This document shows, piece after piece, positions 2,609 to 23,468 of a stretch of DNA of 28,648 bases. The first letter of the stretch is position 1. Every line of letters begins with the position of its first letter. The stretch spans positions 1-28,648 of IMG/VR virus record IMGVR_UViG_3300032087_004783. One strand, written 5' to 3'. A program made the position numbers and the translations under genes. The notes under the pieces are model-generated. The model worked only from the letters and a program-made list of their open reading frames with translations. It made no database searches and was not told the origin of the DNA. Origin of the DNA: a virus.

Positions 2609-2866
2609 ATGTTATCAAATGGTATGGGTATGCTTAAGAAGAAAGTTAAACTTGTAGGTAAGTCACGTCACGGCAAAAACCGTGTTCGTGAGCAGGGCGC
2701 TCTGTGGCGTGTTGTGGGTGAGTCCTTAAAGGTTCACTTCAACTCCAAAGCTCCAGGTCCATTCCTTCTGCTTGAGTCAGAAGAGAATGAAGGGCCTCAT
2801 GGCTTCTTCGCTCGCTGGGTCAGCCTTCAGGATGATCCTGACTTTGAGTTGGAGATTGTAGAGTGA
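2609..2866 (+). CDS. small basic-to-acidic beta-rich hypothetical protein (85 aa)
   Basis: The ATG has AAGGAG at 2596-2601. The N-terminal 25 residues are Lys/Arg-rich (KKKVKLVGKSRHGKNRV); the rest alternates short strands (ALWRVVGESLKVHF, PFLLLES, GFFARWVSLQDD) and ends acidic. It lacks the G-D-L-V motif of the array that follows, but the strand pattern could be a distant barrel relative. It overlaps the next gene by 4 bases (GTGA). Function is unknown. Confidence 0.7.
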   Translation: MLSNGMGMLKKKVKLVGKSRHGKNRVREQGALWRVVGESLKVHFNSKAPGPFLLLESEENEGPHGFFARWVSLQDDPDFELEIVE

Positions 2867-3081
2867 GCCCAGAAAAGCTTTGGCGCTCCAAAATTAAAGT
2901 GGGTGACTTGGTTATGATGAAGTCAGGTCACATGGCTATCATAACAGATATCCGATATAAGCACGGGACAGAAACACATCCAGATATCTTACCTCATATT
3001 GGTATTAAATATTGTGATGACAATAGTTACGGAAGTTGTAGCACCTGGCGTGTTAAGGAGGTGCTGAGTGAAAGTCGGTGA
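2863..3081 (+). CDS. SH3-like small barrel protein, array member 1 (72 aa)
   Basis: This is the first of 15 consecutive small genes sharing a pattern that I read as an SH3-like barrel (KOW or YodC/DUF2158-like): a first strand with G-D-L-V-polar, a second hydrophobic strand often G-L-V-V, a third strand V-x-V-x-W/F followed by a Gly turn, and a last strand ending L-x-I/V-V. Here these are VGDLVMM, MAIITDI, HIGIKYCDD and TWRVKEVL. The GTG start overlaps the preceding stop by 4 bases, and the end overlaps member 2 by 14 bases. Barrels of this type bind nucleic acid or protein; no partner can be inferred from sequence. Confidence 0.75.
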   Translation: MSPEKLWRSKIKVGDLVMMKSGHMAIITDIRYKHGTETHPDILPHIGIKYCDDNSYGSCSTWRVKEVLSESR

Positions 3082-3241
3082 TTTGGTAAGACGGACTAAG
3101 GGATGGCAAGGCTGGAAGCGACAGCAACTCGGGCTCGTAGTAAATGTAGACCGAGCAGTTGTCAAGGTCCAGTGGTCTGGCGACTATGGCACCTTCTCTC
3201 ACCCCATTACATCACTGGAGGCTCTCAGTGAAGCCAGGTGA
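3068..3241 (+). CDS. SH3-like small barrel protein, array member 2 (57 aa)
   Basis: The GTG start lies 14 bases before the end of the previous gene. Strands: VGDLVRR, LGLVVNV, VVKVQWSG, then SHPITSLEALSEAR at the end. The loop between strands 1 and 2 is basic and Trp-containing (TKGWQGWKRQQ). It ends in a 14-base overlap with member 3, in which the GGTGAT codons for Gly-Asp of the next protein supply this gene's TGA stop. The gene is only 58 codons and easily missed, but the conserved motif and junction support it. Confidence 0.7.
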   Translation: MKVGDLVRRTKGWQGWKRQQLGLVVNVDRAVVKVQWSGDYGTFSHPITSLEALSEAR

Positions 3242-3422
3242 TCTAGTACGAATCTCAGACTGGGACATCAAAGCCAATCTAGGCTGGAATCCGATCGGAC
3301 TTGTTTTATCAGATCCTGAAGTAAAAAACCACGGTACTACTTGCGTGCTAGTGGATTGGCTGGGGTCCCCTGACACAGAATACTATTCTGTCCACCACTT
3401 GGACATTATCAGTGAATCCTAG
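3228..3422 (+). CDS. SH3-like small barrel protein, array member 3 (64 aa)
   Basis: This is the clearest member: MKPGDLVRI, IGLVLSD, CVLVDWLG and YYSVHHLDIISES. The start is the GTG in the junction with member 2, because the motif begins there; an upstream in-frame ATG would add residues that belong to member 2 in another frame. The stop overlaps member 4's GTG start by 11 bases. Confidence 0.75.
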   Translation: MKPGDLVRISDWDIKANLGWNPIGLVLSDPEVKNHGTTCVLVDWLGSPDTEYYSVHHLDIISES

Positions 3423-3630
3423 TTTTCGCTATCAACTCGGAGACCTTGTAGAATTTAAGAAGTCTCACAGAGTGACCGAGGAGTATGTTGATCTAACAAC
3501 ACTCACGGGGATTGTTGTAGAACAACGTTATGTTTTCACAGCCGACAACAAGTTCAAAGTGAGGACACCTGATAAAGACTACTGGATCAGGGAAGATCAC
3601 CTTAAATTATTATCTTCGAGCAGCAAATAA
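3412..3630 (+). CDS. SH3-like small barrel protein, array member 4 (72 aa)
   Basis: Strands read QLGDLVEF, LTGIVVEQ, KFKVRTPDK and WIREDHLKLL. The loop after strand 1 is longer than in its neighbours and charged. Its TAA stop is the first element of promoter cassette copy 2, so this gene closes the unit that begins at promoter copy 1. Confidence 0.75.
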   Translation: MNPSFRYQLGDLVEFKKSHRVTEEYVDLTTLTGIVVEQRYVFTADNKFKVRTPDKDYWIREDHLKLLSSSSK

Positions 3631-3634
3631 AAAC

Positions 3635-3665
3635 TTGACAGCAACTCTTTCCATGATACTATACT
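3635..3665 (+). promoter_or_regulatory. sigma70-like promoter cassette, copy 2
   Basis: TTGACA at 3635-3640, 14 bases, then GATACTATACT at 3655-3665. It shares with copy 1 the preceding TAAAAAC, the spacer word CTCTTT, and a GGAGGGAGAGAG ribosome site right after the expected start point. It restarts transcription inside the array, before member 5. Confidence 0.8.
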
Positions 3666-3682
3666 TGTGGAGGGAGAGAGTG

Positions 3683-3877
3683 ATGAGTGACTTCAATATG
3701 TTTCATGGCGAGCGTGTCAAGTACGCAGGGTACCACCCCCTTTACCGTGGCTGTAAAGGTGTGGTTGTCGGCGGTGACCACCACAACATTCGTGTGCAGT
3801 GGGAAGGTCAAGAAGACTATCCCCCCCGTCTTCACGAGGCGTGGGAAATTGTTTGGCTCGTAGATAGCGGAGAGTAG
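3683..3877 (+). CDS. SH3-like small barrel protein, array member 5 (64 aa)
   Basis: The ATG after GGAGGGAGAGAGTG is the start; the in-frame TTG at 3635 is the promoter's -35 box, so the longer reading is wrong. The motif is diverged: FHGERVKY replaces G-D-L-V, then CKGVVVGG, NIRVQWEG and HEAWEIVWLV. It contains a His cluster (GDHHNIRV) that could bind metal or simply form the strand 2-3 turn. As the first gene behind promoter copy 2, it is probably the most strongly expressed of this sub-array. Confidence 0.75.
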   Translation: MSDFNMFHGERVKYAGYHPLYRGCKGVVVGGDHHNIRVQWEGQEDYPPRLHEAWEIVWLVDSGE

Positions 3878-3879
3878 TT

Positions 3880-4044
3880 ATGAAAATGAAAGAAGGCGAT
3901 CTGGTTCGGCACCTTGAGAGTGGTCAAGCAGGAGTTATTGTTCTCTCTTGGGGTGTTATGGATGTTGTAGAGGTTCTCTGGAATGATGGCGAAGTCAGGG
4001 GACAGAACCTCTGTGAATTGGAGTTGATCAATGCAGCCAGGTGA
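3880..4044 (+). CDS. SH3-like small barrel protein, array member 6 (54 aa)
   Basis: The ATG follows the previous stop with the junction TAGTTATG, a word also found before member 12. Strands: MKEGDLVRH, AGVIVLSW, VVEVLWNDG and LCELELINAAR. The last eight codons lie in a 33-base direct repeat (4018-4050) that also contains the start of member 7. It is acidic overall. Confidence 0.7.
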   Translation: MKMKEGDLVRHLESGQAGVIVLSWGVMDVVEVLWNDGEVRGQNLCELELINAAR

Positions 4045-4341
4045 TTTGGTAAAATATAAAAATGGCAACGTTTACCTGATTAATGGTAAGCGGGAGATCA
4101 AGGGAAAGGTAGTATATTATTTTCTAGATGGGTTCCCCGCCAATGAGGTATTCAGCCCCGAAGATTTGGAGTTGATCAATGCAGCCAGGTGATTTGGTTC
4201 GGCATCGAGGGAACAAAGAATTATACCTCATACGAAAAATCTTTGAAGCCAGGGGTGAGATTATATGGGTTAACCTAGAGGGTATGCCCGAAAACAAGAT
4301 TCATTATCCAGAGTCTTTGGAGTTGATCAATGCAGCAAGGT
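4018..4341 (+). repeat. three direct repeats at array gene junctions
   Basis: A 33-base word occurs exactly at 4018-4050 and 4166-4198, and its first 25 bases recur with one mismatch at 4317-4341. Each copy spans the end of one gene (LELINAAR, stop) and the start of the next (MQPGDLV in two copies). Shorter versions (TGAAGCCAGGTGAT) occur at 3229 and 4733. These are natural sites for homologous exchange that would keep reading frames intact. Confidence 0.9.
4031..4192 (+). CDS. SH3-like small barrel protein, array member 7 (53 aa)
   Basis: It begins MQPGDLVKY inside the end of member 6 (14-base overlap). Later strands: NVYLINGKR, GKVVYYFLDG and PEDLELINAAR. It ends with the same eight residues as members 6 and 8, encoded by the second copy of the direct repeat (4166-4198). 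This is strong evidence of recent duplication by unequal recombination. Confidence 0.7.
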   Translation: MQPGDLVKYKNGNVYLINGKREIKGKVVYYFLDGFPANEVFSPEDLELINAAR

Positions 4342-4343
4342 AG
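4179..4343 (+). CDS. SH3-like small barrel protein, array member 8 (54 aa)
   Basis: It begins MQPGDLVRH, then LYLIRKIF, IIWVNLEGM and PESLELINAAR. Only the two ends match members 6 and 7 closely; the middle is different, so each gene is a conserved frame around a variable core. It overlaps member 9 by 14 bases, ending in TAG where the others have TGA. Confidence 0.7.
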   Translation: MQPGDLVRHRGNKELYLIRKIFEARGEIIWVNLEGMPENKIHYPESLELINAAR

Positions 4344-4575
4344 AGAGTTAGCAAAGGCGATCCAGAAACGCAGCCGCATCCAGCCAGGTATGTTGGTCAA
4401 GAGCAGCGGCGGCTCGCCAGTTAGCAAAATCGCTTTGGTTGTCAGTCTGTCCGCAGGATGTAAGTTTAGCCAAGATTACGAAGGTGCTGAGGAGCACATC
4501 TTCTATAAGTGCGAGCCCTTGGACGGCACGCCTCCTTTCGTAGATTATGTTTGTAACATGGAGCGGGTATCGTGA
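4330..4575 (+). CDS. SH3-like small barrel protein, array member 9 (81 aa)
   Basis: It begins in the third, degraded copy of the junction repeat, so its first residues are MQQGRELAKAIQKR in place of MQPGDLV. A second motif, IQPGMLVKS, follows about 20 residues later and starts the barrel: KIALVVSL, FYKCEPLDG, FVDYVCNMERV. The added N-terminal helix looks like the result of a junction mutation that destroyed one motif. It overlaps the next GTG by 4 bases. Confidence 0.7.
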   Translation: MQQGRELAKAIQKRSRIQPGMLVKSSGGSPVSKIALVVSLSAGCKFSQDYEGAEEHIFYKCEPLDGTPPFVDYVCNMERVS

Positions 4576-4745
4576 AACTCGGAACTCTAGTCCAGTTCAA
4601 GGCTTATAATATAGTTCTTGACATGGGCATCATCTCGAAGTATGATGATGACCCAGGGTTCGTGTGGGTACAATGTGCGAAGCAGGGGCCACAACGGGTC
4701 AACGTAGACAGCACGATGATGGAGGTGGTAAATGAAGCCAGGTGA
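4572..4745 (+). CDS. SH3-like small barrel protein, array member 10 (57 aa)
   Basis: The GTG start gives MKLGTLVQF; then MGIISKY, FVWVQCAKQ and TMMEVVNEAR. It ends in a 14-base overlap with member 11, with GGTGAT again serving as both stop and Gly-Asp codons. It is short (58 codons) and supported by motif and junction together. Confidence 0.7.
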   Translation: MKLGTLVQFKAYNIVLDMGIISKYDDDPGFVWVQCAKQGPQRVNVDSTMMEVVNEAR

Positions 4746-4929
4746 TTTGGTCCGCATTCGCAAATCCTCCATAGACCATCTGTCTGCCAACTGGTTTATC
4801 TGGCACGCAGAACACAAGACCCCGCTGGTTTTGATTGAAGAAGTAAATAAAAGTTATTGGAACGTGTTGAAACCTGATGGTGGCACCGTGTTCATTCATA
4901 AGAGTCATTTGACGAAAAGGATGTGGTAG
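4732..4929 (+). CDS. SH3-like small barrel protein, array member 11 (65 aa)
   Basis: It begins MKPGDLVRI, nearly identical to the start of member 3, preceded by GGAGG at 4721-4725. Then PLVLIEEV, YWNVLKPDGG and FIHKSHLTKRMW. The loop is Trp- and His-rich (ANWFIWHAEHK). It ends a few bases before the next ATG. Confidence 0.75.
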   Translation: MKPGDLVRIRKSSIDHLSANWFIWHAEHKTPLVLIEEVNKSYWNVLKPDGGTVFIHKSHLTKRMW

Positions 4930-4931
4930 TT

Positions 4932-5117
4932 ATGGAGCCACAATATAAAGCTGGTGAGTTGGTTAGTGTTGCCTCAAGAAGGGTGCTTGGGCTTGTAACC
5001 AAGCCAAATTATTGGGCTCTTGATGAATATCTCGGCGGCGAGATTGAGATGGTAGATGTTATTGTCAAAGGTAAAAAGAGACAATACCCTGCACGATACA
5101 TTTTGAAAATCAAGTAA
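4932..5117 (+). CDS. SH3-like small barrel protein, array member 12 (61 aa)
   Basis: I chose the ATG preceded by TAGTT, matching the junction before member 6; a GTG three codons upstream is possible. Strands: KAGELVSV, LGLVTKP, MVDVIVKGK and PARYILKIK. It is basic at the C-terminus, unlike its acidic neighbours. Its stop shares a base with the next ATG (TAATG). Confidence 0.7.
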   Translation: MEPQYKAGELVSVASRRVLGLVTKPNYWALDEYLGGEIEMVDVIVKGKKRQYPARYILKIK

Positions 5118-5362
5118 TGCAACGAGAAACTTATAACTCACGGCTCAATATAAACCCTGATGGTGTTTCACCAGGAACACTACTTCGGGCGAAGAGGTGG
5201 TGTAGAAACAATATCACTATTCGCAAAAATGGTGAGTATGCTATCATTGTGCCTAGCAAAGAAAAGTATCGTGAGTATGATGTCATGTTCCCCAGCGGAA
5301 TGAAACTTGAATATATGGCGATTAACTGGGAGGTAATCAGTTATGCTAAACAGCAGGGATAA
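5117..5362 (+). CDS. SH3-like small barrel protein, array member 13 (81 aa)
   Basis: It has about 20 extra N-terminal residues before VSPGTLLRA; then EYAIIVPS, EYDVMFPSG and EYMAINWEVI. It is basic and Arg/Lys-rich between strands (KRWCRNNITIRKNG). It overlaps the next gene by 20 bases. Confidence 0.7.
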   Translation: MQRETYNSRLNINPDGVSPGTLLRAKRWCRNNITIRKNGEYAIIVPSKEKYREYDVMFPSGMKLEYMAINWEVISYAKQQG

Positions 5363-5612
5363 GATGTGGGCGGTTCAACAGCCTGGAACTATTTTGCGGT
5401 GCCGTTGGGGTAACGAGAACTATGGAAAATTAGCCTTGGTTCTTGCGAGAGCCCGCCCTGGTCCGAAGCCAAGCAATGGTTACCCTCCCCGACGCTATGT
5501 GAGGATGCAGTGGGTCTCAACTGGCGAGCGGTTTGAAGAAATGTTGGTGAATGCTCACAATTGTTTTGACATTGTGAGTTCCTGTGATAATATTGAACAC
5601 GGAGGTGGCTAA
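5343..5612 (+). CDS. SH3-like small barrel protein, array member 14 (89 aa)
   Basis: The ATG at 5343 has GGAGGT at 5328-5333; an alternative ATG at 5364 follows the previous stop. Strands: QPGTILRC, KLALVLARA, YVRMQWVSTG and NCFDIVSSC. The strand 2-3 loop is long and Pro/Arg-rich (RPGPKPSNGYPPRR). It contains four Cys residues, three near the ends. Confidence 0.7.
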   Translation: MLNSRDKMWAVQQPGTILRCRWGNENYGKLALVLARARPGPKPSNGYPPRRYVRMQWVSTGERFEEMLVNAHNCFDIVSSCDNIEHGGG

Positions 5613-5815
5613 TGGGTATCAAGCCTAAGTTCGAGCCAGGTCAACTAGTACGATACGGCGACCCTGAGAATGGTCTCGTTGGTCTGGTCAAGTCTACGCA
5701 GTTCGCCCGCCGCCGTGGCGACCCTGTGTTTGTGCTGGTCCAGTGGTGCGGCAAGTATCGGAACAAAGAAGAGTACATTCCCCAAACAGAACTTAAACTA
5801 GTGGAGGGTTCATGA
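5612..5815 (+). CDS. SH3-like small barrel protein, array member 15 (67 aa)
   Basis: This is the last tandem member, preceded by GGAGG. Strands: EPGQLVRY, VGLVKST, FVLVQWCGK and PQTELKLVEGS, a good match to members 2 and 3. It overlaps the following larger gene by 4 bases (ATGA), so the array and the conserved phage gene behind it are probably read together. Confidence 0.75.
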   Translation: MGIKPKFEPGQLVRYGDPENGLVGLVKSTQFARRRGDPVFVLVQWCGKYRNKEEYIPQTELKLVEGS

Positions 5816-6330
5816 ATATTTTTGCTATCGAAGGTAACGCTGACACAGGTCAAATTGACTGGGAGGCATCGGCTCGATCACAGGACAACTTGCGAGTTGT
5901 CAAGATGATCCTGGAGTCTTGTCAGATTTTATCTACCGTGCTCAACGAGCAGGGGCTCAAAGCTCCATATCGCTCTTTCAATCCTAAGCATCCATCGTGC
6001 TTATGGGCCGCTGAGTCAGCCAATAACTTTACCAACCTCGCTCTACATTGTCAGGCGATGATCGACGAGTACGAGCACCGCTTCAATAAGACACACAAGT
6101 GCCAGGCGGTTCTTCAGCAGATCATTGAGATGTTTGATCCTGATCTGTTCCCGCAACAGGAGTGTACTCCATTGCGGCTCGCTATGCCCGAAGAGTTCCA
6201 GTCGGACAATCCAGTCGTATCTTACCGCAAGTTCTATGCTGCGAAGCCACGATTGCGATACCCAGCGGATAAGATTCCAGATTGGGTCTATGACTATCGC
6301 ACTGAGCCTTTTGAGGTGGTCAATGGATAA
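5812..6330 (+). CDS. conserved phage protein of unknown function (172 aa)
   Basis: The sequence begins MNIFAIEGN and continues with a helical segment RVVKMILESCQILSTVL, then HPSCLWAAESANNF, YEHRFNKTHK and AMPEEFQ. I recognise this combination from a protein found widely in tailed phages (usual forms have DKHVVKMILE..QLLSTA and HPS..W). Its biochemical role is not established as far as I know. Here the Asp-Lys-His before VVKM is replaced by Asp-Asn-Leu-Arg, a departure from the usual form. It overlaps the last array gene by 4 bases and the next gene by 8. Confidence 0.75.
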   Translation: MNIFAIEGNADTGQIDWEASARSQDNLRVVKMILESCQILSTVLNEQGLKAPYRSFNPKHPSCLWAAESANNFTNLALHCQAMIDEYEHRFNKTHKCQAVLQQIIEMFDPDLFPQQECTPLRLAMPEEFQSDNPVVSYRKFYAAKPRLRYPADKIPDWVYDYRTEPFEVVNG

Positions 6331-6601
6331 GAAGCATAAGAAAAAGCTAAAGCGAGCAGCCAAAAAGAGAAAAGAAAAGGCAGCAGCACAGGAGACGCAA
6401 AACAAACTAAAAAAACAAATCAACATGTTTGACAGACTCCCAAGTTCGTGTTCTACTTGTAGTGCTGAATTTCCAAAGACTCGTGAGGCGCACATGACAT
6501 GGAGAGTTGTAGTCAAAGAAGAAAAACAAAAAGTCTGGTTATTTTGTCCAGATTGCCAAGAGAAAGCCAAACAAATTGTGGAGAACAATAATGAAATTTA
6601 A
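6323..6601 (+). CDS. Lys-rich zinc-ribbon protein (92 aa)
   Basis: The ATG at 6323 is the start; the frame extends upstream only inside the previous gene. The first 45 residues are a Lys/Ala-rich basic helix (KKHKKKLKRAAKKRKEK), followed by C-S-T-C and, about 35 residues later, C-P-D-C, giving a four-Cys zinc ribbon around a strand-rich core. Such proteins usually bind nucleic acid. The last codons overlap the start of the IMPDH-like gene. Confidence 0.75.
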   Translation: MDKKHKKKLKRAAKKRKEKAAAQETQNKLKKQINMFDRLPSSCSTCSAEFPKTREAHMTWRVVVKEEKQKVWLFCPDCQEKAKQIVENNNEI

Positions 6602-7634
6602 AGAAGCAGTAACTTACGATGATATGCTTTTGGTGCCCCAATATAGCGACATCACAAGCAGAAGTGACGTAAACATTTCTAGCGCTATGAATAGTGGGTT
6701 TTCGTTAGACTTGCCTATTATGGCATCACCCATGGACACAGTGTCTGAAGTTGACATGAGTATCGCCATGGCAAGGGCTGGCGGATTAGCGGTTATTCAT
6801 CGCTACAATAGCATTCCTGAGCAGGGTGCCTTAGTGAAACGGGCAGCTAGCCATGCCAGCACCTCTTTAGTTGCGGCAGCGGTTGGTGTAACTGGTGACT
6901 TCTTAGAGAGAGCAACGGCGGTCGTTTCTCTCGGTGCGAATGTCTTGTGTGTGGACGTTGCCCACGGGCATCATGTCATGATGAAACAGGCGTTAGAGCA
7001 ACTAAAAGACACTTTTGGAGATGACGTTTATATTATCGCAGGAAATGTCTGCACCCTGGAAGGAGTAAACGACCTGGCTGACTGGGGTGCTAACGCTGTT
7101 CGGTGCAACATTGGCGGCGGTAGTATCTGTTCGACTCGAATTGTAACAGGCCATGGACTCGCTGGGCTTCAAACCATTTTTGATTGCGCTCGAACTGACC
7201 GAGATGTGAAGATTATTGCTGACGGCGGTATCAAAACCTCTGGAGATATTGTGAAAGCTCTGGCTGCTGGTGCTGACTTCGTAATGTGTGGCTCCCTCCT
7301 TGCAGGAACAGAGGAGAGCCCAGGTCAGGTTATCACCATGCCCGACGGAAGCCGTATGAAAGAGTATCGAGGTATGGCTTCCAAGGATGCCCAGATGAGT
7401 TGGCGAAATCGGTCATCAACTCCAGAAGGTGTTGCTTCCTACATTCCTTACAAGGGAAGTGTCGTAGATATTCTCCGTGACTTGGAAGGCGGCATTCGCA
7501 GCGGATTATCTTACACGGGTGCTCGGACAATTCTGGAGCTTCAACAGAAGGCAGAGTGGTCACGCCAAACCTCAGCGGGAACAGTTGAGAGTGGCACACA
7601 CATTCTCACAGCCCAGGGCGGGAGGAGAAAATAA
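6591..7634 (+). CDS. guaB: IMP dehydrogenase/GMP reductase family protein without CBS domains
   Basis: The enzyme family interconverts IMP with XMP or GMP using NAD(P). The 347-residue TIM barrel begins [14 protein letters not shown] (8-21) and shows the catalytic loop [13 protein letters not shown] (175-187) with nucleophile Cys180, the phosphate site DGG (211-213) and [13 protein letters not shown] (233-245). The two CBS domains usual in bacterial IMPDH are absent, so the barrel is continuous, as in GMP reductase. The C-terminal features (EYRGMAS, TPEGV, and TSAGTVES resembling the IMPDH end) lean towards IMPDH, but the flap is short. The gene symbol is therefore provisional. The ATG at 6591 has GGAG at 6580. 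It may raise guanine nucleotide supply during infection. Confidence 0.88.
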
Positions 7635-12471: not shown

Positions 12472-14842
<2,371 letters not shown>

Positions 14843-15979: not shown

Positions 15980-16010
15980 TTGACCTACCTTAGAAGTATG
16001 CTAATATACT
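15980..16010 (+). promoter_or_regulatory. sigma70-like promoter cassette, copy 3
   Basis: TTGACC at 15980-15985, 14 bases, then GCTAATATACT at 16000-16010. As in copies 1 and 2, it follows ATAAAAC at a stop codon, and a GGAGGGAGAGA ribosome site (16014-16024) comes immediately after the expected start point. An extra TTGACA at 15966 is not at the right distance. Confidence 0.78.
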
Positions 16011-16027
16011 TATGGAGGGAGAGACAG

Positions 16028-16111
16028 ATGTTCTACAAAGTAGTGATCTACAAAGACTATGATGGCTCCAACAAACTCGGGCGCATCCCGTCCAGCAAGG
16101 AGAGCAAGTAA
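16028..16111 (+). CDS. leader-like peptide (27 aa)
   Basis: This is the first ATG after promoter copy 3 and its strong ribosome site. It encodes MFYKVVIYKDYDGSNKLGRI and a short Ser/Lys end. Its stop overlaps the next ATG (TAATG), and an AAGGAG for that gene lies in its last codons. It is either a tiny protein or a leader whose translation opens the following gene. Confidence 0.5.
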   Translation: MFYKVVIYKDYDGSNKLGRIPSSKESK

Positions 16112-16798: not shown

Positions 16799-17191
16799 AT
16801 GCGAGCAACAATTAGCTTTGAAACTGATCTGGATCAAGTTGAGGGCACCATGGCTATCCTAGCTTGTGCAGAAGAGCACAATCTTCGTGCTGCTGCTGAC
16901 ATCCTGTCTAACTACACCATCCTGGACGGAGAGTTGCTGGGTCGTATCACAGAAGTTCTGCGCTTAGTGGAGGCATCTGCTGCACAGCTTAGACAATATC
17001 AGCAAATGGTGGCAGGCTTTGAAAGGGCTAGGTTTGATACAATTTTGCCGCAGCCTGCTGGTCAGCCCGTACACAATCTTGGGGAACTAAGAAATACTAT
17101 CGATGCAATGAAGCAGTTTGACGGATTCGTGAGTGAGATTGCGGATCAAGACAAGGAAGGACAAAATGATTCCGAACCTGAAGAAGGGTGA
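16799..17191 (+). CDS. helical hypothetical protein (130 aa)
   Basis: The ATG follows AAGGAGG with good spacing. The product is mainly helical (MAILACAEEHNLRAAADIL, LLGRITEVLRLVEASAAQLRQY) with an acidic disordered tail. No family is recognised. Its tail overlaps the next gene by 26 bases. Confidence 0.7.
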   Translation: MRATISFETDLDQVEGTMAILACAEEHNLRAAADILSNYTILDGELLGRITEVLRLVEASAAQLRQYQQMVAGFERARFDTILPQPAGQPVHNLGELRNTIDAMKQFDGFVSEIADQDKEGQNDSEPEEG

Positions 17192-21612: not shown

Positions 21613-21783
21613 ATGAAAGCAGGCGATCTAGTAAAAGAAGGTGTACCCTTGATGGCGGGTGACGTTCCCGAGAGGGTTGGGGTTGTTGTTGAGACTCCAA
21701 CTTATGGAGCGACGTTTGTAAAAGTTTTATTTGACAAAGAGGAGTTTGTGCCCTATAATTCCCTTAAGAAAATGGAGGCTTAG
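21613..21783 (+). CDS. SH3-like small barrel protein, dispersed member (56 aa)
   Basis: The ATG follows AGGAGG. Strands: MKAGDLVKE, VGVVVET, FVKVLFDKEE and VPYNSLKKM, a textbook match to the array family. A ribosome site GGAGG for the next gene lies in its end. Confidence 0.72.
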   Translation: MKAGDLVKEGVPLMAGDVPERVGVVVETPTYGATFVKVLFDKEEFVPYNSLKKMEA

Positions 21784-22123: not shown

Positions 22124-22600
22124 GTAACTAAGCCGGCAAAACCACATCAAATTTGCGTAGCCTTTTACAAGGGTGAAGGACGCTGGCACAACCGAATAGT
22201 CCGCTGGACAACCCAAAGCAAATACTCGCACGCAGAACTGATCATGCCTGACAATACCGCCATAAGCATAACCCCTTTCGGACAAGCAGGCATCCGCCGC
22301 AAACCTGTAGAAGAACTTGGCAAAGACTACGACATGATCTGTGTACCCGTATCCGACGAGCAACTGGAAACCATAGAAAAATTCTTCGAAGATACAAAAG
22401 GCGACAGCTATGACTGGCCGGGAATGATCCTCTCGAAGTTCACACCATTTTTCGTAAAGCGGACAGGACGCTGGTATTGTTCTGAATGGATAGCCTATGC
22501 GCTCCGCTTGTGTGGAGCCGTTGACAACCTTTATCACTATGCCGATCTGACGCCGCAAAGGCTCTACGAGATTCTCGAAAAATATGCCGACAAAAACTAA
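22124..22600 (+). CDS. permuted papain-like (NlpC/P60, YiiX-type) hydrolase, start codon unclear
   Basis: SKYSHAELIM (about 32-41) carries the His, and GRWYCSEWIAYALRL (about 121-135) carries the nucleophile Cys, in the reversed order typical of YiiX/YaeF-type permuted NlpC/P60 enzymes; YDWPGMI between them also fits. These enzymes cleave amide bonds in peptidoglycan peptides or in lipids and proteins. The frame is open from 22109, but the first ATG is at 22244, inside the domain and after the His motif. I mark GTA at 22124 (V-T-K-P-A-K-P) as the likely first codon by homology-like reasoning; a GTG-to-GTA change, a rare start (ATT at 22151) or a sequence error are all possible. Confidence 0.65.
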   Translation, partial: VTKPAKPHQICVAFYKGEGRWHNRIVRWTTQSKYSHAELIMPDNTAISITPFGQAGIRRKPVEELGKDYDMICVPVSDEQLETIEKFFEDTKGDSYDWPGMILSKFTPFFVKRTGRWYCSEWIAYALRLCGAVDNLYHYADLTPQRLYEILEKYADKN

Positions 22601-22808
22601 AGAATCCTTTCTGTATGCTCCTGGCTCGCTGGTCAAGACGAGGAAGCAGATCTACTCGGCGGATCCACCGCAAGTTATTGCCGAAGGTACAGTAGGGCTT
22701 GTGTTGTGTGGTCCAAAAGTAAACTATAGAAACCATTGTCAAGTGCAGTTCACGGGTTTGGGCGAGCCATGGTGGGTAAATTACGCCGAGATTGAGCCGC
22801 ATTTGTAA
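22584..22808 (+). CDS. SH3-like small barrel protein, dispersed member (74 aa)
   Basis: It overlaps the hydrolase end by 17 bases. After a 12-residue lead, strands read APGSLVKTR, VGLVLCG, HCQVQFTGLG and WWVNYAEIEP. Trp-Trp in the last strand is unusual for the family. Confidence 0.72.
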   Translation: MPTKTKESFLYAPGSLVKTRKQIYSADPPQVIAEGTVGLVLCGPKVNYRNHCQVQFTGLGEPWWVNYAEIEPHL

Positions 22809-22882: not shown

Positions 22883-23176
22883 ATGACAAACAAACAACTT
22901 GTGAATTATACTTTGATTTATGAAGAGTACGTGACAGATGCGGCGAAGGATGGGCTGGAGATGCCTAGGTTGTATGCTGATCTTACTCCCGAGATGAAGC
23001 GGTTTGTTGAGGAGTTAGTTGACTATGGCGCTAAGCAGGCTGTTGAAGCAGTACTGGATCCTGAGGTGATGGAGTCCACGGCGGAGCTAGCAGCGGACAT
23101 GGGCACACAGCTTTATCAGTTTGCTAATATGATTCGTAGTCATGGACATACGGTAATGCCGTCTGACGATGGCTGA
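22883..23176 (+). CDS. helical hypothetical protein (97 aa)
   Basis: The ATG lies 9 bases after a strong AAGGAGGG. Acidic and helical throughout (YADLTPEMKRFVEELVDYGAKQ, AELAADMGTQLYQFANMI). No family is recognised. It overlaps the next gene by 8 bases. Confidence 0.68.
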   Translation: MTNKQLVNYTLIYEEYVTDAAKDGLEMPRLYADLTPEMKRFVEELVDYGAKQAVEAVLDPEVMESTAELAADMGTQLYQFANMIRSHGHTVMPSDDG

Positions 23177-23468
23177 TTTTTCCCCAGGAGACCTGCTGTA
23201 TATTTCGGTTTTGAAAAGTGGCATGACTCTCGTCAAGTACGATTCTAAATACGATTCAGAAGATTATCTCAAAGAAAGGTATCATGAGTTTAGGCTTGAG
23301 GAGAGACGCTACAATCCTTATTCAATAAGCATGGGATATTGTTGGTGTCTGATCGAATCAGTGACAAGGAATGAATTAGGGCAAGCAGTAGATTATGGAC
23401 TGATCATCAATGGTCAGAAATATAAATGTAGAGCCAAACTGGCAGAGAGGTATATGTTTAAGTTATGA
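23169..23468 (+). CDS. extended SH3-like barrel protein (99 aa)
   Basis: It begins ADFSPGDLLYI, matching the array family's first strand, but has a 40-residue charged insertion (SEDYLKERYHEFRLEERRY) before CWCLIESV, DYGLIINGQ and AERYMFKL. It is probably a diverged family member; this is less certain than for the shorter ones. Confidence 0.65.
   Translation: MADFSPGDLLYISVLKSGMTLVKYDSKYDSEDYLKERYHEFRLEERRYNPYSISMGYCWCLIESVTRNELGQAVDYGLIINGQKYKCRAKLAERYMFKL

Follow-up and report, generated by a model that had tools for sequence, protein, structure and literature searches.

We analyzed the 28,648-base IMG/VR virus record IMGVR_UViG_3300032087_004783 over its whole length (hereafter the window) and found that small genes in a tightly packed, same-strand array at positions 2609-5815 are repeatedly joined by one conserved word of about 36 nucleotides (nt), which codes in two frames for the end of one protein and the beginning of the next. 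The array lies between a dUTPase gene and a conserved gene of 172 amino acids; its host genome is that of a large marine tailed virus, and the array is hypervariable, with SH3/KOW-like genes. Gene order in the array is scrambled among relatives, and genes have been swapped with breakpoints at the word. We propose, with a probability of roughly 70%, that this conserved boundary word lets small-gene modules swap in frame via short-homology recombination. A preliminary description of the window had viewed identical overlapping junctions as a frame-safe mechanism of array growth and shuffling, an interpretation that is partly supported overall.

At six junctions the downstream start and the end of the upstream stop lie at 3068/3081, 3228/3241, 4031/4044, 4179/4192, 4330/4343 and 4732/4745, an overlap of exactly 14 nt in each case. 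The upstream stop is formed by bases 12-14 of the downstream gene, which read GG-TGA-T at five junctions and GG-TAG-A at 4330. The coordinates of all six bear out the earlier claim of exact 14-nt overlaps in which GGT-GAT of the downstream gene contains the stop of the upstream gene, and the six junctions also support the view that a motif of the downstream gene acts as the terminator of its neighbor. Other junction types in the window array are an 11-nt overlap ending in TAG (3412), a 4-nt overlap (4572), and overlaps of 1 or 20 nt or gaps at the rest. The sequence GGTGATNTNGT occurs six times in the window against 0.18 copies expected in shuffled sequence, and five of these copies are array junctions. 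The sixth, at 17187, is outside the array (17166-17191) at the start of a KKGDLV gene, where GGTGAT stops an unrelated upstream gene (16799-17191) with an overlap of 26 nt. The features of the array region are as follows.

2863-3081, + strand: array gene, family 4; at least seven different follower families in relatives
3056-3091, + strand: junction word 1; start 3068, upstream stop 3079-3081
3068-3241, + strand: array gene, family 13; predicted SH3/KOW-like barrel (AlphaFold2 pLDDT 82, PDB matches to Spt5 KOW domains)
3216-3251, + strand: junction word 2; start 3228, upstream stop 3239-3241
3228-3422, + strand: array gene, family 5
3412-3630, + strand: array gene, family 9; 11-nt overlap (TAG), pair 5 to 9 retained in most relatives
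3630-3685, + strand: promoter and leader repeat with TTGACA, TATACT and GGAGAGAG; second class of exchange point
3683-3877, + strand: array gene, family 18
3880-4044, + strand: array gene, family 14; here without a word start, GGC-GAT used
4019-4054, + strand: junction word 3; start 4031, upstream stop 4042-4044
4031-4192, + strand: array gene, family 6 (copy 1)
4167-4202, + strand: junction word 4; start 4179, upstream stop 4190-4192
4179-4343, + strand: array gene, family 6 (copy 2)
4318-4353, + strand: junction word 5, hybrid; start 4330, word of family 6 type fused to the family 7 N-terminus, stop TAG 4341-4343
4330-4575, + strand: array gene, family 7; most relatives have in front of it a promoter gap, or another gene lacking this overlap
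4572-4745, + strand: array gene, family 10; start overlaps the upstream gene by 4 nt
4720-4755, + strand: junction word 6; start 4732, upstream stop 4743-4745
4732-4929, + strand: array gene, family 1
4932-5815, + strand: stable downstream array block of families 8, 2, 3 and 0; order kept in most relatives
5812-6330, + strand: conserved anchor gene 3' of the array (172 amino acids); PHROG 624 'DNA binding protein', weak Pfam match to pyrimidine dimer DNA glycosylase

A search with the anchor gene retrieved 80 relatives, and the gene families were mapped onto 17 close contigs for the comparison of gene order. The anchor gene is encoded by 249 contigs, and those of the longer relatives L131, L208 and L139 measure 170-190 kb. 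In these contigs 14-nt overlaps account for 79 of 299 junctions in array regions and for 0 of 187 outside them. Alignment of 62 junctions delimits the conserved word to about 36 nt, from -12 to +23 around the start codon, with the consensus TGGAGGTGnTnA-RTG-AAG-CCn-GGT-GAT-TTG-GTn. The word comprises a Shine-Dalgarno (SD) core, the start codon, a stop at +11 and codons for MKPGDLVR, while its upstream frame encodes approximately LEVLSEAR-stop, the end of the upstream protein. The preliminary description had taken GGTGAT as the shared word; GGTGAT is indeed within it, but the word extends to the SD sequence on one side and to the following TTGGT on the other. The 36-nt consensus is common to unrelated gene pairs at 67 word junctions, which start with GTG (34) or ATG (33) and carry TGA (64), TAA (2) or TAG (1) at +11. 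At 57 of the 67 starts each of the two alternative frames contains a TGA stop (RTGA and GGTGA), so that an upstream gene is ended cleanly whichever of these two frames it arrives in. Nine junctions were given a new start by rule, and five of these (families 13 and 5) are miscalled starts that count as word junctions. GGT at codon 4 is universal in 14-nt junctions by construction and so is circular as a test for that class; at GD starts outside the class GGT varies freely.

The gene order of the array is scrambled among the 17 contigs: its downstream block (families 1, 8, 2, 3 and 0) is fairly stable and its upstream part is labile. In the relatives, seven different families come after family 4 (13, 5, 6, 37 and three more, with a 14-nt overlap each time after start correction), six come after family 13 and five after family 6, and family 5 is preceded by 13, 4, 6, 24 or 38 in different relatives. 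The follower differs in 69% of genome pairs at word junctions; the figures for other overlaps and for gaps of at least 20 nt are 29% and 73%. In contigs L126, L129 and L131 the 3.4 kb upstream core is 91.5-91.8% identical, yet the arrays are rearranged. Rather than the stable order with breakpoints elsewhere that the preliminary description had named as contrary evidence, we found scrambled order and breakpoints concentrated at the word. This exchange of neighbors is also what makes a purely duplicative origin highly improbable, in which the junctions would be copies of one ancestor whose gene bodies diverged in place with little exchange. An N-terminal motif and the word are common to all members and two family 6 copies adjoin in the window, as tandem duplication would have it; however, such an origin is contradicted already by the scrambled order, with families swapping neighbors between relatives (4 to 13, 5 or 6; 5 preceded by 13, 4, 6, 24 or 38) and arrays scrambled next to core DNA that is 91-92% identical.

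Mapping of the breakpoints places the switch of homology in the word. When junctions share the upstream gene and differ in the downstream gene, identity remains at family level up to -13 and has dropped to background (about 0.25) at +24 and beyond (62 junctions); when they share the downstream gene the profile is the mirror image. The posterior of a single breakpoint inside -12 to +23 is 83% in the 28 pairs with a common upstream gene and 95% in the 17 pairs with a common downstream gene, and it counts against our proposal that these pairs were picked for high identity beside the word, which biases the test toward breakpoints at or beyond it. Within the word the probability is shared among the SD, the start codon, GGTGAT and TTGGT. 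GGTGAT alone was rejected as the breakpoint, as only 9-14% of the probability falls there; the preliminary expectation of breakpoints in GGTGAT is thus correct as to the junction word and too narrow by comparison with its approximately 36 nt. An independent test based on the ends of homology, which lacks the identity-selection bias, places 56 of 141 unique sites (40%) in word windows that make up 5.9% of array sequence, with a p value of 7e-32 that overstates certainty because the contigs share history. Gene bodies contain 19% of homology ends against 77% expected, and a breakpoint is carried by 77% of word junctions, 26% of other overlaps and 40% of gaps.

These distributions bear on the possibility that random (illegitimate) recombination occurs throughout, that only joins at gene borders survive selection, and that the word is simply a ribosome site plus fixed first and last strands. 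The SD core and the GD-L-V codons would be conserved in any case, the other overlaps and gaps are also enriched in breakpoints, words are not homogenized within genomes, and the SH3 genes are perhaps just more dispensable than their neighbors. Nonetheless we regard selection of surviving joins as an unlikely sole cause. Breakpoints are about three times more frequent at word junctions than at other overlapping borders, homology runs into the word from either side, and an overlap of exactly 14 nt is seldom expected from illegitimate joins. In addition, synonymous codon choice is unusually constant at positions that belong to neither the stop nor the SD: the Leu codon is TTR at 54 of 64 word starts (84%) versus 17 of 47 other GDL starts (36%), and the Asp codon is GAT at 54 of 64 versus 22 of 47. 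Codons fixed beyond the needs of the stop would be consistent with inheritance by exchange. The T after TGA may reflect stop context, and effects on RNA at early codons may also contribute.

An alternative role for the overlap is termination-reinitiation between neighboring genes, with shuffling incidental. A strong SD lies directly 5' of most word starts and the overlap holds the stop near the next start; as in known translational coupling, the downstream start lies inside the upstream gene near its stop and has an SD site (PMC12548453). The usual gene overlaps, however, are -4, -1 and -8, and coupling declines with overlap, the published optimum being -4 to +3 nt (PMC12548453). Fourteen nt is not a usual coupling distance, here it accompanies module exchange, the modal -14 of the array is not seen outside it, and the fixed +15 to +23 part is unnecessary for reinitiation. 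Retention of the overlap for coupling alone is therefore very unlikely.

The frame safety that had been claimed for the junctions holds up: in simulated in-register swaps at the word both genes stayed intact in 8663 of 8712 cases. Frame safety is not peculiar to the 14-nt overlap, as 4-nt RTGA junctions are equally frame-safe and also serve as exchange points. A second class of exchange point is a repeat of the form TTGACA..TGATAATATACT..GGAGAGAG, a sigma70-like promoter with a leader, found at 2388-2439, 3630-3685 and 15998-16030. This repeat is also a breakpoint site between relatives and resembles a mobile regulatory cassette. A consensus scan detected no promoter in the junction word itself, as distinct from the separate 3630-type repeat with its sigma70-like promoter, and terminator-like stems in the region were at chance level (4 found versus 3.2 expected), none of them inside a word.

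L126 (family 6 to 24) and L129 (6 to 5) share sequence through GGTGAC and diverge after it. Where L131 has 14-to-6, L129 has 14-to-4'-to-6, and the inserted family 4 copy has acquired the word start ATGAAGCCGGGTAAA. The other end of this family 4 replacement in L129 is apparently inside family 6, and so not all exchange ends at a word. Around the array L018 and L091 are about 98-99.8% identical. One difference between them is a family 39 gene, joined at GAGGT-ATGAA; another is a two-gene insertion in family 4 whose join lies in a KPGD codon stretch. In the same two contigs the middle of a family 38 gene differs while both ends match (L018 3626-3817, L091 5432-5617), an allele replacement inside a gene.

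The TAG junction at 4330 belongs to family 7, whose usual predecessor is a promoter gap or another gene without a 14-nt overlap. Family 7 follows family 6 in the window (TAG) and a family-15-like end in L127 (TAA), in both cases with a 14-nt overlap in the same register. These stops come from the gene's own GGT-AGA/AAA: in several relatives the family has an N-terminal Gly-Lys/Arg (GGT-AAA/AGA), and its IQPGMLV motif lies about 16 codons beyond the N-terminus. The TAG stop had been noted correctly in the preliminary description, but its label as a mutated Gly-Asp copy was rejected; a different gene family has been joined in.

Several points weigh against exchange at the word as the cause of this pattern. 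Most exchanges were deduced from diverged genomes, making the events old and the counts non-independent. Promoter gaps, RTGA overlaps and some gene bodies also serve as joins, and conservation of the word is explicable by translation or protein needs alone. The near-identical pairs L206/L208 (99.5%) and L201/L202 (97%) are collinear with no array change, indicating that array turnover is not constant. No recombinase was identified among the annotated genes of the 28.6 kb fragment. Finally, word similarity is 0.693 within genomes and 0.696 between genomes (p 0.6), which gives no sign of ongoing internal gene conversion. Homogenization of words within genomes was rejected on these values, and as words from one genome resemble each other no more than words from different genomes, exchange between viruses is likelier than internal copying. 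Copy-number change and shuffling, both foreseen in the preliminary description, do occur in relatives, but the evidence favors exchange between viruses over self-expansion of the array.

In viral contigs, 128 matches to the start pattern open small open reading frames (ORFs). At 72 of these matches an upstream ORF of at least 35 amino acids ends at the TGA of the pattern, compared with 15% of random TGAs, and these upstream ORFs often share a LEV-SEAR ending. A stricter 31-nt word occurs in 28 stretches of viral contigs, mostly contigs already compared. A similar strict form was not found in 84,980 sequenced prokaryote species genomes, and a 39-nt consensus word gave only chance-level matches in phage records. 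Four contigs that are not close relatives (L111, L032, L033 and L094) have word-like 14-nt junctions of their own, four of them in L111.

For the 3068 protein, the only one modeled, AlphaFold2 predicts a five-stranded barrel (strands 6-9, 21-27, 31-36, 42-46 and 50-54) with a predicted local distance difference test score (pLDDT) of 82. The best PDB match of the model is an Spt5 KOW domain (TM 0.79, E 0.006), and we predict that the protein is an SH3/KOW-like small barrel. The word spans the first strand of the barrel model and, at the gene's other end, its last strand; thus a single DNA word would serve two barrels, coding the final strand of the upstream one and the initial strand of the downstream one. 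Ten array proteins had no significant Pfam or PHROG match, and tblastn in phage records found no match for the protein of array gene 4732 or for the 10870 protein. By inference, the most likely function of the array proteins is to bind nucleic acid or protein partners during early host takeover or in counter-defence.

Elsewhere in the window, positions 6-1034 encode the C-terminal part of a bacterial-type DNA polymerase III alpha-like polymerase that is cut by the record start (PHROG 405), and Pfam matches identify an IMP dehydrogenase/GMP reductase gene at 6591-7634 and a GroEL-type chaperonin gene at 13256-14842. More small genes outside the array, at 21613-21783, 22584-22808 and 23169-23468, have AGDLV/PGSLV/PGDLL-like N-termini. 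Megablast of phage records found no record close to the window.

Based on these results, we suggest that any two copies of the word may recombine, either within a genome or between co-infecting viruses. Such recombination would swap whole barrel modules and leave the terminal strands, stop and ribosome site intact, as well as the reading frames, because all modules share the word in the same register. The route would be recombination over the short homology that the word provides, probably through strand annealing by a phage recombinase. We infer that the word promotes exchange rather than merely tolerating it, and it may be maintained partly because it permits exchange. More tentative, and in our judgment doubtful, is the stronger idea of a dedicated, selected exchange site, in which the two-frame coding linker would be a built-in cassette joint through which a pool of interchangeable barrel genes is reassorted among co-infecting marine viruses without an integrase.

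Rad52-like phage recombinases carry out relaxed homologous recombination, in which diverged, imperfect homologies recombine into mosaics, with assayed homologies of at least 300 bp (PMC3945230); here the homology is about 36 nt at about 70% mean identity, and the annotated window genes include no identified recombinase. The T4-type PeSL cassettes are promoter plus stem-loop motifs that mediate shuffling (Arbiol 2010, Comeau 2014, as cited in PMC4503421). Going by that citation, they are likewise short repeated cassettes between small hypervariable genes, and the promoter and leader repeat at 2388, 3630 and 15998 is comparable. The junction word differs from the cassettes so described in having no promoter or terminator, with SD, start and stop within coding sequence.

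The clean joining of phage modules at gene borders is an old question, and conserved boundary sequences were proposed for phage mosaicism decades ago. In the modular theory, as cited in PMC3029335, a short shared sequence at module borders permits homologous exchange with genes unbroken, although such sequences are unidentifiable at most joints. In the viruses compared here the same sequence stands at the borders of different module pairs and homology switches there. Across the 17 contigs a single word is repeated at 67 junctions, where it lies within a pair of overlapping genes and codes in both frames. The array word is thus a variant of boundary-sequence shuffling in which the recurrent two-frame coding word inside overlapping genes is the new part. 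A recurrent, alignable joint of this kind in many related viruses, with breakpoints concentrated at it, makes the boundary-sequence idea directly testable, and the word suggests why the small-barrel array turns over while the adjoining core remains 91-92% identical.
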